Assembly: GCF_026684035.1 (NCBI RefSeq)
Contig: NZ_CP113361.1
Span: 1,984,001 to 2,048,000 of the forward strand
DNA length: 64,000 nt
Direction of reading: 5' to 3'
DNA from: Methanogenium organophilum
Lineage (GTDB): Archaea > Halobacteriota > Methanomicrobia > Methanomicrobiales > Methanomicrobiaceae
Each line of letters begins with the position of its first letter. Positions within the stretch are counted from its first letter, which is position 1. The translations under genes and the position numbers were made by a program. Below the pieces are notes generated by a model. That model worked only from the letters and a program-made list of their open reading frames with translations, was not told where the DNA came from and did no database searches. Shown piece by piece: positions 10,571 through 16,843 of the stretch.

Positions 10571-11341
10571 TCAAAGAGACCCTGCATTTGATATTTTTGC
10601 AAAATCGCTCAGTTGGAGTTCTTCCGGTCTTTTTCTGAGAATTTCTTCCGGGATGTTCTCTATGATTGCTATCACCTGTTCTTTCCCAATGATACCCTGA
10701 GATATCCGCAGGGCCTTTCGTATGGTCTTTCTTCGGTGAGAGAATAGTTCACGTACGACAAGGGCGTAAAACTGATGGTCATGAATAGGATGTGGCGGGT
10801 CTCTCGGGATGATACGCATGACCCAGGACTGCACAGCGGGCGGTGGAGTAAATGCACGTTGTGAAAGCTGCATAATTGGTTTTGCCTTCGCATATGTCTG
10901 TACCATAATTGAAAGCCTGCCAACACCCGGAGTGCCGGGGGGTGCAATCATCCGCTGTCCGAATTCCTTCTGGTACATGAGCACTGCTTCCTCAAATCCT
11001 GCGTCCAGAAGTCGGAAGGTGATTTTTGAGGATGCTGAATACGGAAGGTTTGAGACTGCGATATCAAATGGTGGATATTCGCATTTTACTGCATTTCCCT
11101 GTATCAGGGTAAGGGCGCCAGACTTTATTTCCCGGTGAAAACGATCTTTCAGATATTCAACCAAATCACGATCAAGCTCGATGGCAGTGACTATTGCACC
11201 ATGATCCAGAAGTGCACGGGTCAGGGGGCCTTCTCCCGGCCCAATCTCCAGTACCCGTTTCCCTGAAATATCGGCTGCAGAGGCAATTCGTTCAATTGCC
11301 TTTTTATCCGTTAAAAAGTGTTGATCGTGAGGTGCTTTCAT
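10571..11341 (-). CDS. ksgA: rRNA adenine N6-dimethyltransferase (16S rRNA)
   Basis: 256 residues, normal for archaeal KsgA/Dim1. It shows SAM motif I LEIGPGEGPLTRALL (about 32-46) and the catalytic NLPY motif (SNLPYSASSKITF). It dimethylates two adjacent adenines in the 3'-terminal helix of 16S rRNA during small-subunit maturation. Its ATG overlaps the DUF655 stop (ATGA), and it is the last gene of the minus-strand unit L21e-rpoF-DUF655-ksgA, a conserved archaeal order. An alternative start is unlikely because MKAPHDQHFL is the usual N-terminal region with the substrate-adjacent DQHFL. Confidence 0.95.
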   Translation of the reverse strand: MKAPHDQHFLTDKKAIERIASAADISGKRVLEIGPGEGPLTRALLDHGAIVTAIELDRDLVEYLKDRFHREIKSGALTLIQGNAVKCEYPPFDIAVSNLPYSASSKITFRLLDAGFEEAVLMYQKEFGQRMIAPPGTPGVGRLSIMVQTYAKAKPIMQLSQRAFTPPPAVQSWVMRIIPRDPPHPIHDHQFYALVVRELFSHRRKTIRKALRISQGIIGKEQVIAIIENIPEEILRKRPEELQLSDFAKISNAGSL

Positions 11342-11901
11342 CGTGATGTAAAGATACGGTATTTTATATCCGGGTCTTCGATCTCTTCCAGCACTCTCTT
11401 CACAATCATCTGCTCCGGGTGGGGGATAGTTTTAATTCGTTCACTGATGTCTGAAAAACTTGTAAACGGGCGTTTTTGCCGCTCTGCAAGGATTTCCTGC
11501 ATCAATTTTTTTCCAATGCCTGGCAGGAGGTGAAGCATGTGGAGTTTAATTGAGATGGGTACAGCATCATTGTAGAAGGCAACATACCGCTTTTCATCAT
11601 CTTTGACAATGCCCTCGATGGCAAACGGTAGTTCTACTTTCGCAGTCTGGGTAAGATCTGCATAGCCGATACGACGCTTTACCCGCTCAATTTTATCACG
11701 TTCTTTGTCGCCGATGTACACCTCATCATTTATTGAAATGCTATCGACTTTCGGAACGAGTTCAAGAAGCTTGAACTGGTCTTTCCCAACAGCCTGAACA
11801 ATCGGTTCATGCTTATATTGTTGCCTCCCGCCTGCATCTCCCCTTCCTCGTGGGAGATACTCAATAACAACTGCATAGATTTCTTTTTTGTCAGATCGCA
11901 T
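11338..11901 (-). CDS. DUF655 family RNA-binding-like protein
   Basis: 187 residues from the ATG at 11901, chosen because a GAGGGGG Shine-Dalgarno sequence lies 6 nt upstream; a TTG at 11916 is in frame but less likely. The N-terminal half is a beta-rich OB-like domain (EIYAVVIEYLPRG to VYIGDKERD). The C-terminal part has a helix-hairpin-helix (LHLLPGIGKKLMQEILAER). DUF655 proteins are universal in archaea and sit next to ksgA, suggesting a role in ribosome or RNA metabolism, although the molecular function is not established. It overlaps ksgA by 4 nt. Confidence 0.9.
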   Translation of the reverse strand: MRSDKKEIYAVVIEYLPRGRGDAGGRQQYKHEPIVQAVGKDQFKLLELVPKVDSISINDEVYIGDKERDKIERVKRRIGYADLTQTAKVELPFAIEGIVKDDEKRYVAFYNDAVPISIKLHMLHLLPGIGKKLMQEILAERQKRPFTSFSDISERIKTIPHPEQMIVKRVLEEIEDPDIKYRIFTSR

Positions 11902-11912
11902 GGGTTTCCCCC

Positions 11913-12263
11913 TCAATAATGGGTGATGACCAGTTCAATTATCTCATCAAGTTCTTCACCGGAAAGCGTAAACCGTTCTTTTGCATAGATTGCCCGGAGT
12001 TCATCGCGGGTCCGTGGCATAAGATTTGCAATGCGGTATGCAATGTCTGGTTTAATCTTTTCAAGTGTCAGCAGTTTCTCCACAAGTGAACGTGCGTTCT
12101 CTGCACTTGTTTTCGTTAACTGGTTGGCATGTTCGATACTCCTGCGGAGTTCGTACGGAAGTTCACTGCCGGATTCAAGTCTGGATGACTCTACCGCGAG
12201 GAGTGTTTCCCTGACTTCGGATAATGTAATTCTCTCTTCATCGACAATTCCTTTAACATTCAT
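11913..12263 (-). CDS. rpoF: DNA-directed RNA polymerase subunit F (Rpo4)
   Basis: 116 residues, matching archaeal RpoF/Rpo4 (Rpb4 homologue). It is largely helical with the HRDC-like end NLMPRTRDELRAIYAKERF, and forms the stalk of RNA polymerase with subunit E'. It follows L21e and precedes DUF655 with an 11 nt gap, the common archaeal gene order. Rpb4 homologues are weakly conserved but the C-terminal LMPRT-DE pattern is diagnostic. Confidence 0.92.
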   Translation of the reverse strand: MNVKGIVDEERITLSEVRETLLAVESSRLESGSELPYELRRSIEHANQLTKTSAENARSLVEKLLTLEKIKPDIAYRIANLMPRTRDELRAIYAKERFTLSGEELDEIIELVITHY

Positions 12264-12285
12264 GCCAGTACCATCCCTGTGAAAA

Positions 12286-12579
12286 TTATTGTTTTTGTGG
12301 TTTTAGATGTTGTGGTTTTGAGATGACAGTTTTTGTTTTATTACCGTCACTAATCTCAAGAACCCATGCACGTCCACGCTTTCCGACAACCGTTCCGGTC
12401 TTTCCATGGAAACGTCTGTGAGGCATCCCTTTCTGAATACTGGAATCGATAACGATATGTACTTTCTGCCCCTCATCAAACGACTGAATGATGGTGGTTA
12501 CCGGTGCAATTCCGCGACGTCTGAGTGCTTTTTTGAACTTACCGCGAGTCTTTTTACGTGGACCATTGTGATGTGCCAT
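12286..12579 (-). CDS. rpl21e: 50S ribosomal protein L21e
   Basis: 97 residues, highly basic. Starts [20 protein letters not shown] and contains the L21e core [20 protein letters not shown]. It is a large-subunit protein found in archaea and eukaryotes. It lies 4 nt downstream of pus10 and 22 nt upstream of rpoF. Length and motif agree with the family. Confidence 0.97.
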
Positions 12580-12583
12580 TTAT

Positions 12584-13837
12584 TTAATCCTCCTGGAATT
12601 TATTTTCTGCTTCAGGAACAACGCCTTCGACCATGATAACGTCGAGGGCTGTTACCTTTGCGGGTGCCCCAATGCATTCAGTGAGGCTTGGATGTGTTCT
12701 CCCTTCATCGCCTGAAATGAGCTCTTTGATATAAAGGCCCGCGTCTCCAAGGACTTCAATTCTGTATTGATCGTCTTCAGTGCCTTTCAGGCAGATGTCG
12801 ATGACATTCCGCTTTCTCTCCCGGTCTGCCCTTCGGTGAGCTACCCTTTGGGGGGTGCGCTGCGAAATTGCTGCCCCTTTCAGGACAGATAGGGATGATC
12901 TGACGTCATCTTCTGAGAAATCGCCGTCAACTTCTACCAGAATGCTGTATTTCTTATGCGCTTTTCCCGATTTAATTGTTTCCACCTCGCGGCGGTCGCT
13001 GATGTGATCGAGGACAACAGATATCCGGCCATCCGCGGTGGAATTAATTGTTTCTTCAAGCACAGAAAGGGGGATACTGCGTTTAACCGGATGGACGATT
13101 TCCATGATAAATGGTCGTCCGGTACCGATCATCCGTGCATCAATGTCCTCCCTGCCGGCGCCATGAAGAATTACATCTTCAGAGCTGAATAATTCGGCGA
13201 CAGGCCGTCCGATGAGTTCTTCAACAGAATCAGCATACATCTTGCCGGTAAAGTTGCACCGCTCACACCCTGCCCCACGGCATTCGCGACAGTGCCACCT
13301 GGTCTGCGGAATACCTCGTTCGTATTTCCGATACCTTCCATAGATGTAGATGGGATTTATTTCGATATCAACAGTGTTTTCGGCAGGATTACAGACTGCA
13401 ACAACATCCGGGCGTTTGAAATCAACTTCTGATCCGCTTCTGGCGGAGAAGGCCTTACCGACTTCTCGGTTGAACTGTGCTTTCAGCGTTTCCGGAGATG
13501 TGAGGCCGAGATCGCTCCAGACCATCTCTTCACTCTCTGCCATAATGGGAGGTACCCGGCAGCCAACCAACAGTGTTGAAAATTCAATGCCCTGTACACT
13601 CTCTTCGATTCTCTCGGCCCATGTATCCGTTTCATCAAACATGTTTCCACAGATCCAGCAGGGTTTTATCTCTTCTGTGTACGGCTCATTATCTTCAAGT
13701 GCAAGTACTGTTCGCAGGGATCTGCCCCGTTCTTCATTGGTGAGTCCGAATGACTGTTTACCAAAGAACCTTCCAAGGCAGTGGTTGCATATTGTTCCAT
13801 ATGCAAGGATTTCCCGTGTTTCTTCGATTACTCCGAT
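12584..13837 (-). CDS. pus10: tRNA pseudouridine(54/55) synthase Pus10, apparent AUC start
   Basis: Pus10 makes pseudouridine at tRNA positions 54 and 55 in archaea. The frame continues 65 codons upstream of the first ATG (13642) and encodes the expected N-terminal zinc module with cysteine pairs C17/C20 (ICNHCLGRFFGKQ) and C60/C63 (CWICG). A THUMP-like part and the catalytic domain with GREDIDARMIGTGRPF (Asp nucleophile) follow. No ATG, GTG or TTG lies in frame between the upstream TGA and 13642. An AUC at 13837-13835 sits 6 nt behind a GGAGGGG Shine-Dalgarno sequence, and the gene overlaps the trmY stop by 10 nt. 417 residues from AUC. A sequencing frameshift is the alternative explanation. 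Confidence 0.88.
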   Translation of the reverse strand: MGVIEETREILAYGTICNHCLGRFFGKQSFGLTNEERGRSLRTVLALEDNEPYTEEIKPCWICGNMFDETDTWAERIEESVQGIEFSTLLVGCRVPPIMAESEEMVWSDLGLTSPETLKAQFNREVGKAFSARSGSEVDFKRPDVVAVCNPAENTVDIEINPIYIYGRYRKYERGIPQTRWHCRECRGAGCERCNFTGKMYADSVEELIGRPVAELFSSEDVILHGAGREDIDARMIGTGRPFIMEIVHPVKRSIPLSVLEETINSTADGRISVVLDHISDRREVETIKSGKAHKKYSILVEVDGDFSEDDVRSSLSVLKGAAISQRTPQRVAHRRADRERKRNVIDICLKGTEDDQYRIEVLGDAGLYIKELISGDEGRTHPSLTECIGAPAKVTALDVIMVEGVVPEAENKFQED

Positions 13838-14406
13838 GTTTTTCCCCTCCTGTCCATTTCATTGAGCACCACAGTGATAGTGTGGTCGGCATGCAGTACT
13901 GCAGGGCCGACTGAAACCTGTTGCAGATGCTCAGTCATTGCACTCTCACTCTCCGAAAAATTCTGGTGGTCGGAGAGGAGATAGGCCGACGGAAGCTCCT
14001 CAATATCCCTTATGTCAGTGCCCCCCTCATCGAGAATGGCAGGGTTGCATTCGGAAAGGATTTGTTCCAATCCTCCCCTGCGGACAAAGACTCCGGGTGT
14101 TGATTCGCGGAATTCTTCGTCACATGGTAGTGCAAGTGCTTTTTTGATGAGCGATCCTGCACTCCGTTCGTCCGGGCTGAGATACCTGAGCGTATCTCCT
14201 CTGAAAAGAATGGTCTTTGGAGGATCCGGTTCTCCCAGCAGGACAAGATAGCACTCCGCATCACGTCTAAGGTCATGGGAAAGAAAAAACGATGAATTCA
14301 CACACCTGCAGAGGACATCCATTCGACCTGCCCCCCCTGGCATGTCATTGAGGGAAAAGTCTCCGTCTGTCCGGGCGCGGTGCCCGATGACGATAAACTG
14401 TTTCAT
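13828..14406 (-). CDS. trmY: tRNA (pseudouridine(54)-N1)-methyltransferase TrmY
   Basis: 192 residues of the archaeal TrmY family, SPOUT superfamily. Signature segments are GHRARTDGDFSLNDMPG (about 8-24) and the C-terminal knot region LLSDHQNFSESE with VGPAVLHADHTI. It N1-methylates pseudouridine 54 in the T-loop, the product of the next gene, pus10; the two enzymes act in sequence and their genes overlap by 10 nt. It follows srp54 with a 5 nt gap. The TGA/ATG context gives no ambiguity in the start MKQFIVIGHRA. Confidence 0.93.
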   Translation of the reverse strand: MKQFIVIGHRARTDGDFSLNDMPGGAGRMDVLCRCVNSSFFLSHDLRRDAECYLVLLGEPDPPKTILFRGDTLRYLSPDERSAGSLIKKALALPCDEEFRESTPGVFVRRGGLEQILSECNPAILDEGGTDIRDIEELPSAYLLSDHQNFSESESAMTEHLQQVSVGPAVLHADHTITVVLNEMDRRGKTSE

Positions 14407-14411
14407 AACTC

Positions 14412-15731
14412 TTACATCCCACCAAATTTCTTCATCATGCGCTGCATGTTGAACTTACCCTGTCCACCACGCATTGTCTTCAGGGTGCGCTGCATTGTCT
14501 TGTAATATTTGATTAACTCGCGCACTTCATCCGGTGAGGTTCCGGACCCCATGGATATACGCTGAATCCGTGAACCGCTGATAACACCCGGATTGTCAAG
14601 TTCTTCACTTGTCATTGAATCCATGATATATTTGAAGCGGTCCATTTTTACAGACGTCACATCAAAGGCATCCTGGGGGAGATCAACATTTCCCAGCGGC
14701 AGCATTCCCATTACCTGCTTTAAGGGCCCCATTTTTTTAAGGGCCTCAAGTTGTTTGTACATGTCGCGAAGGGTAAATTTCCCTTTGAGCATTGCATTGA
14801 CATCGACATCCTCGGGAGAAATTGCCTCCTCGGCACGTTCAATGAGCGCCCGAAGGTCCCCCATTCCAAGCAGGCGGGATATGAACCCGTCCGGGTCAAA
14901 GCGTTCAAGATCCTCAATGGTCTCACCGCTTCCGACAAAAACAATCCCGGAACCAGTCTCTGCTACAGCAGAAAGAGCACCGCCTCCCTTTGCAGTACCA
15001 TCCATCTTTGTTATGATGACACCGTCAATATCGATTGCTTCATGGAATCTGCGCGCCTGTTCGCGTGCCTGCTGACCGAGTGCAGCATCGATAACAAGCC
15101 AGCGGTGTGTCGCGGACGACAGTTCGTTGAGCGCAATGATCTCTTCGATGAGTTCGTCCTCAAGTGCATGTCGGCCCTGTGTATCGATGATCAGGACTTC
15201 AGTGCCTGCCAGTTCCTCCATCCCGCGTGTGACAATACCAACGGCATCTGTCTCACCCGGCTCCCCATAACAGGGAACATTAACCTTCTGACAGAGCGTG
15301 GTAAGCTGATCATATGCACCGGGGCGGAATACATCAGCACAGATAACACCAACGCGGAGCCCCTTTCTCTGGAAATAGCGTGCAAGTTTGCCGGTTGTAG
15401 TTGTTTTCCCACTTCCCTGCAGGCCTGCCATGAGAATTGTCTGGGATTCAAGTCTGACATCGACCTCCTCTCCCATCAGGTGAACAAGTTCCTCGTACAC
15501 AATTCTGAGGACATGCTCACGTGCACCCATTCCCTTTGGTGGTTCTTCCTCCAGAGATCGTTTTTTGATGGTTGTTGTGAGCTCCATAACGAGCTTCACA
15601 TTTACATCCGACTGAATGAGCACTCTTTGCAGATCACGAACCAGTTCATCGACCGCTGCTTTGTCGATGACAGATTTCCCTGCAAGTTTTTTTACAGCGT
15701 CTTTAAGACCAGTACCGAACCTGTCCAGCAT
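14412..15731 (-). CDS. srp54: Signal recognition particle protein SRP54
   Basis: 439 residues with the N, G and M domains of SRP54. G-domain motifs: [16 protein letters not shown] (G1, about 101-116), DTQGRH (G3; Gln in place of the usual Ala), TKMDG (G4) and GSGE. The M domain ends with the methionine-rich [15 protein letters not shown] that binds signal sequences and SRP RNA. It directs ribosomes carrying membrane or secretory proteins to FtsY. It lies 2 nt downstream of ftsY, so receptor and particle protein are co-expressed. Confidence 0.97.
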
Positions 15732-15733
15732 TG

Positions 15734-16843
15734 TTATTCATCTCCGAGAAGGTCACTGACTAAGGTTTCAGGCTCGAATGGAATAATATTCGTATATTCC
15801 TGCCCTGTTCCAAGGAACATGATTGGTCTTCCAATTGTGTGCGCGATTGAAATTGCTGCACCACCCTTTGTGTCCATATCAGCTTTTGTCAGTACAACAA
15901 CATCTGTCCCTACAGCATTGTTAAATTCTTCTGCACGGATGACCGCATCATTCCCGGCAACGGCCTCGTCTACATACGCAACGATGTCCGGCTTGAAGAC
16001 ACGTTTTATCTTTGCCAGCTGATTCATCAGGTTTGCCCGGTTGTGGAATCTTCCTGCGGTATCTGCGAGGACAACATCGATGTCATGGGCCTTTGCGTAT
16101 TCAACCGCGTCATAGAGGACCGCAGATGGATCAGCACCTTCCTGGTGGCGAATGACTTTAACACCGACACGGTCGGCATGTGTCTTCATCTGTTCATTTG
16201 CACCAGCCCGGAATGTATCTCCGGAACCGATTACGACAGAATACCCTTCTGCTTTCAGATAGGCTGCAACCTTTGCAATGGTTGTTGTTTTTCCTGCGCC
16301 ATTTACCCCGGTAAAGAGAACCTTTACCGGATGGTCATGTGTGCTAATGTATGAGGTGAGTGAGAACCCTTCGCCAAGAACGTCCAAAAGTGCATCTCTC
16401 AGGGCATCCATTACCATATTGTCAATGGATGAACCGATTTTTTTGGTACTTCCGGTCAGTTCGCTACGCATCTGGGTTGATATTGCATCAACTGTCTGTA
16501 GCGCAACATCGTTTTCGAGCAGAATAATTTCAAGTTCCTGAAGGGGTCCTTCAATCTTCTTTTCAGAGATGTGTACTTCCCGATCTTTTAAGAGGGTTCG
16601 AACTTTTGCAGAAAAGGCGACTTTGTCCTTCTTTATTTCCGAAGGAACTTTAGGTTCTGGTGTTTCAGATGCCTCAGGTATGTCCGAAGACTCTGTCTCG
16701 GCTGAAACCTCTTTGGAGGCAGTTAGGGGTGTGGGTGAAGAAATCTCTTCATCAAGAGAGACCTCTTCAATAAAAGATTCCTCAATTTCACGGGAAAATC
16801 TGCTACGTACCCCTTTCAGTTTTGATTTCAGAGAATCAAACAT
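15734..16843 (-). CDS. ftsY: Signal recognition particle receptor FtsY
   Basis: 369 residues. An acidic, low-complexity N-terminal part (about 18-72, rich in Glu/Ser/Pro) precedes the NG GTPase domain with [15 protein letters not shown] (G1), [12 protein letters not shown] (G3) and [10 protein letters not shown] (G4). It docks SRP-bound ribosomes at the membrane. The gene lies 6 nt downstream of pfdA and 2 nt upstream of srp54. The arrangement pfdA-ftsY-srp54 is common in archaea. Confidence 0.97.

Follow-up and report, generated by a model that had tools for sequence, protein, structure and literature searches.

The frame and the question it raises

At which codon does translation of pus10 begin when the first ATG of its frame stands at 13642, well inside the gene, and the codons from the upstream TGA to that point include no GTG or TTG? 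This is the situation in the window, by which we mean the whole 64,000-nucleotide stretch analysed here, taken from the Methanogenium organophilum genome (2.65 Mb, single contig). The stop-to-stop frame (13858..12584, minus strand) has 424 codons. Its product matches the archaeal Pus10 profile TIGR01213 over the full length (538.5 bits against a cut-off of 200; frame residues 13-411, model positions 2-402 of 402), the Pus10 THUMP domain (PF22023) and the C-terminal catalytic domain (PF21238) are both above their cut-offs, and two N-terminal Cys pairs, CNHC and CWIC, are found upstream of the first ATG; on these grounds it was assigned to archaeal Pus10. The first-pass annotation had described 65 Pus10 codons ahead of ATG 13642 with no ATG, GTG or TTG among them, which agrees with both our reading of the frame and the TIGR01213 match, and it had placed zinc cysteines at C17/C20 and C60/C63, the same positions that we found when counting from the AUC. 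Visual inspection places pus10 and trmY in a tightly packed group of genes on one strand (11338-16843), in which ffh (SRP54) and ftsY-like genes appear to precede them and a gene for an L21e-like ribosomal protein to follow.

The comparative analysis leads us to propose, with a probability of roughly 0.84, that pus10 in nine related methane-producing archaea starts at an AUC, a codon at which proteins hardly ever begin, located at 13837 in the window (Table 1).

Table 1. Features of the trmY-pus10 junction, and a second gene with a candidate near-cognate start.
Feature	Position	Strand	Remarks
pus10 CDS, proposed AUC to stop, 417 aa	12584..13837	-	TIGR01213 match; Pus10_C and archaeal Pus10 THUMP domains
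pus10 N-terminal part upstream of first ATG, 65 codons, with CNHC and CWIC	13645..13837	-	pN/pS
First in-frame ATG of pus10, too internal for a start	13640..13642	-	after second Cys pair; upstream codons conserved
Proposed AUC start codon of pus10	13835..13837	-	ATC in 9/9 species of two genera; 16 codons before CxxC
Shine-Dalgarno sequence AGGAGGGG, GGAGG core 8 nt from AUC	13844..13851	-	AGGAGGG identical in 9/9
trmY, tRNA pseudouridine-54 N1-methyltransferase	13828..14406	-	NF002560, 240.7 bits (cut-off 183); ORF
2Fe-2S thioredoxin-like ferredoxin gene (PF01257), loci L219-L224	G000:C1:1597649-1598113	+	outside the window

Conservation among relatives

The comparison set consisted of nine species, seven of Methanogenium and two represented by sister-genus genomes (G009 and G021). 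None of the nine has a standard start codon ahead of its first Cys pair, and all share a common frame, ...CAG GAG GGR ... ATC GGA GTW ATM..., in which the ATC is identical and the codon preceding it differs (AAC, ATC, CCC or ACC). A gap without start codons is therefore conserved in nine species of two genera together with the same ATC and the same Shine-Dalgarno sequence AGGAGGG. Other Methanomicrobiales carry the same gene with its start at nearly the same place; in contrast to the nine, theirs is ATG, rarely TTG or GTG. In 83 of 92 readable Methanomicrobiales loci such a codon precedes the first Cys pair by 13-18 codons, the nine exceptions being exactly the clade that joins Methanogenium to its sister genus, and the site occupied by ATC, 16 codons before CxxC, is that of the ATG in 58 other loci. 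In the Pus10 tree the nine ATC sequences form one clade (support 100/99), so that a single loss of AUG, after which AUC was kept, is the simplest history. At a few of the other Methanomicrobiales loci (L029, L031, L130) the apparent start is TTG or GTG at the same position, which suggests that the pus10 start is weak in several lineages.

The first-pass annotation had proposed examining the same region in close relatives, and the recurrence of the gap and the ATC in eight further species is more than chance. The same recurrence bears on whether the missing start codon results from a sequencing error or from decay of the gene. No support for either was found at pus10; nine genomes obtained separately, strains of M. 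marinum and M. cariaci among them, agree in this state, and decay is further contradicted by an open frame under purifying selection throughout. An insertion or deletion hiding an ATG, which had been named as an observation that could overturn the AUC start, is unlikely when the assemblies of eight other species have the same gap. Sequencing error was thus rejected as the cause, and the chance that error or decay accounts for the gap is close to nil.

Selection on the upstream codons and on the end of trmY

For six gapless Methanogenium sequences (L007, which has an insertion, was left out), pN/pS was 0.138 for pus10 codons 12-71 and 0.144 for the remainder. Since the two values are equal for practical purposes, the stretch ahead of the first ATG is, as judged from the pattern of substitution, translated and constrained. 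This bears directly on ATG 13642, which is the first standard start codon of the frame and would give a Pus10 without the N-terminal zinc module. Codons 12-71 are as constrained as the rest and belong to the TIGR01213 model, and a start at 13642, which had also been named as an outcome that would count against the AUC, would leave strongly constrained zinc-finger codons unexplained; we regard it as very hard to credit.

The end of trmY, whose stop TAA occupies 13830-13828, overlaps the proposed start of pus10 by 10 nt (ATCGGAGTAA). Of 39 trmY codons ahead of the junction, 1 had an invariant third base, against 7 of the 9 codons at the junction itself (Fisher p 4e-6, to be taken as indicative only, given the small number of codons, the choice of blocks after the data had been seen and the relatedness of the species). 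The seven invariant wobble sites fall in two blocks, GAAATGGACAGGAGG, at the Shine-Dalgarno sequence, and ATCGGAG. Furthermore, the trmY codon whose wobble base supplies the A of the AUC varies between ACA, TCA and CCA, yet this base is A in all nine species. The first block (13846-13860, the trmY end up to the Shine-Dalgarno sequence) is identical in 9/9 over its whole length, of which the Shine-Dalgarno sequence accounts only for the AGGAGG end.

The first-pass annotation had placed GGAGGGG 6 nt before AUC 13837, at an overlap with the trmY stop, and these coordinates are correct: GGAGGGG occupies 13850-13844, with a gap to the AUC of 6 nt, or 8 nt when counted from the GGAGG core. Among 697 genes of the window genome with conserved starts, GGAGG precedes 67, mostly at 6-10 nt (mode 7 nt, maximum 14 nt), and the 8 nt at pus10 is therefore normal. 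No conserved RNA structure was detected at the pus10 start: folding there is weaker than in shuffled versions of the region (z +1.46), and a comparison across the nine species yielded no recurring structure.

Initiation might use another near-cognate codon nearby, namely GUA 13831, AUC 13828, AUC 13810 or, in six species, the first ATC of an ATCATC. These codons are in frame and partly conserved; however, only ATC 13837 is identical in all nine. In the sister genus, GUA 13831 is replaced by GTT and ATC 13828 by ATA; the first ATC of ATCATC reads AAC, CCC or ACC in three species. For AUC 13828 the distance to GGAGG would be 17 nt, and none of the 67 GGAGG genes exceeds 14 nt. A start at one of these codons is thus unlikely, although it is the least unlikely of the alternatives. 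A programmed -1 frameshift from trmY into pus10, yielding a TrmY-Pus10 fusion, is another alternative; the two frames stand in the right relation, and the trmY frame of the window contains G_GGA_AAA. The slip site would have to lie between 13858 and 13828, where this heptamer occurs only in the window; the other species mostly have GAG_AAA_TCA, GAA_AAA_TCA or GAG_AAA_CCA at the site, which are mostly non-slippery, and no conserved slippery heptamer was found in the trmY frame among the nine species. Frameshifting would also leave the invariant ATCGGAG and the normal Shine-Dalgarno spacing unexplained, and we consider it quite improbable. The start at AUC 13837, as first suggested from the window by itself, is supported by the ATC of nine species, the position of the AUG in relatives, purifying selection, the frozen trmY wobble sites at the Shine-Dalgarno sequence and the AUC, and the normal spacing between these two.

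How initiation at AUC might proceed

At this AUC, sequence and conservation are what was observed, and from them we infer initiation itself. The unusually strong Shine-Dalgarno sequence inside the coding end of trmY would position the initiating ribosome at AUC 13837, where the initiator tRNA would pair through the first two bases. Initiation is expected to be weak, as AUC matches AUG at two bases. In E. coli, AUC is a very inefficient start codon. For AUU, a related near-cognate, about 0.3% of the AUG level has been cited (PMC10666635), and it has been reported that non-AUG starts tend toward stronger Shine-Dalgarno sequences (PMC5622118). The latter survey, which covered 61,358 ancestral AUG starts, listed no switch to AUC, a codon that annotation rarely permits (PMC5622118). 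Our literature searches on AUC starts in archaea, near-cognate starts in Haloferax and Methanogenium start codons found no prior report.

Because the pus10 start lies within the last trmY codons, ribosomes that end TrmY can probably restart at the AUC. Such a restart would offset the weakness of the codon, and Pus10 output would be lower than that of TrmY and tied to it. Translation coupling of this kind is probable by analogy, as it fits the geometry of the junction and published archaeal termination-reinitiation, which in Haloferax volcanii operates where genes overlap and declines over some 20 nt (PMC10666635). TrmY methylates the pseudouridine-54 made by Pus10 (PMC7912444), and tying the output of the two genes would therefore be sensible.

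On this reading, an ancestral AUG would have given way to AUC a single time, before Methanogenium and its sister genus separated, with AUC retained in both thereafter. In genera with the ATG one codon upstream, it overlaps the trmY stop as ATGA, and a single G-to-C change would remove both. Six Methanogenium species read ATCATC at that site, which fits, but does not prove, loss of the AUG by such a change.

Pus10 and TrmY modify tRNA positions 54 and 55. The initiator tRNA of the window genome has U54 and U55 and may therefore be a substrate of Pus10 and TrmY. It is conceivable, though we think it improbable, that the AUC serves as a regulatory device, in which under-modification of the initiator tRNA, or lax checking of the start codon, raises Pus10 output, as an archaeal counterpart of the infC feedback.

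A possible further near-cognate start in the genome

A scan of 934 ortholog pairs, comparing 1.2 Mb of the window genome with 1.2 Mb of a second genome (G006), found only two genes, pus10 and one other, in which convincing coding sequence precedes all standard starts. The scan detects genes whose next standard start lies well inside, and about 58% of genes have at least 10 codons of such room; candidate families f5 and f6 were read in part. Many other candidates were rejected as antisense frames, rRNA or upstream noncoding conservation. The second gene encodes the ferredoxin-like protein of Table 1; counted from the upstream stop, some 35 conserved codons of its frame include no ATG, GTG or TTG. 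Behind a Shine-Dalgarno-like sequence, five Methanogenium species and one further genus share an ACG that is likely, from its conservation, to be a second near-cognate start. Under the improbable regulatory reading given above, near-cognate starts might even be a wider device in the lineage.

If the AUC start is true, archaeal initiation retains near-cognate starts over genus-level time, and a conserved archaeal AUC offers a natural test case for start-codon checking by aIF1. Annotation limited to ATG, GTG and TTG would truncate or lose such genes and miss the true beginning of pus10; a comparison of two genomes is able to find them.

Comparison with known systems

Conserved near-cognate starts are already known. 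For example, bacterial infC has an AUU start that serves IF3 autoregulation and is conserved over many species. Like infC, pus10 is a translation-related gene that combines a conserved candidate near-cognate start with a good Shine-Dalgarno sequence. In contrast, pus10 would use AUC instead of AUU, is archaeal and codes for a tRNA modifier, and autoregulation is a property of infC. Archaea lack IF3, and aIF1 checks the start codon. The arrangement at trmY-pus10 also resembles termination-reinitiation in Haloferax volcanii, in that the proposed start falls among the final codons of the preceding gene, at a working reinitiation distance (PMC10666635), but the restart would occur at AUC, and trmY and pus10 overlap by 10 nt where 4 or 1 is usual.
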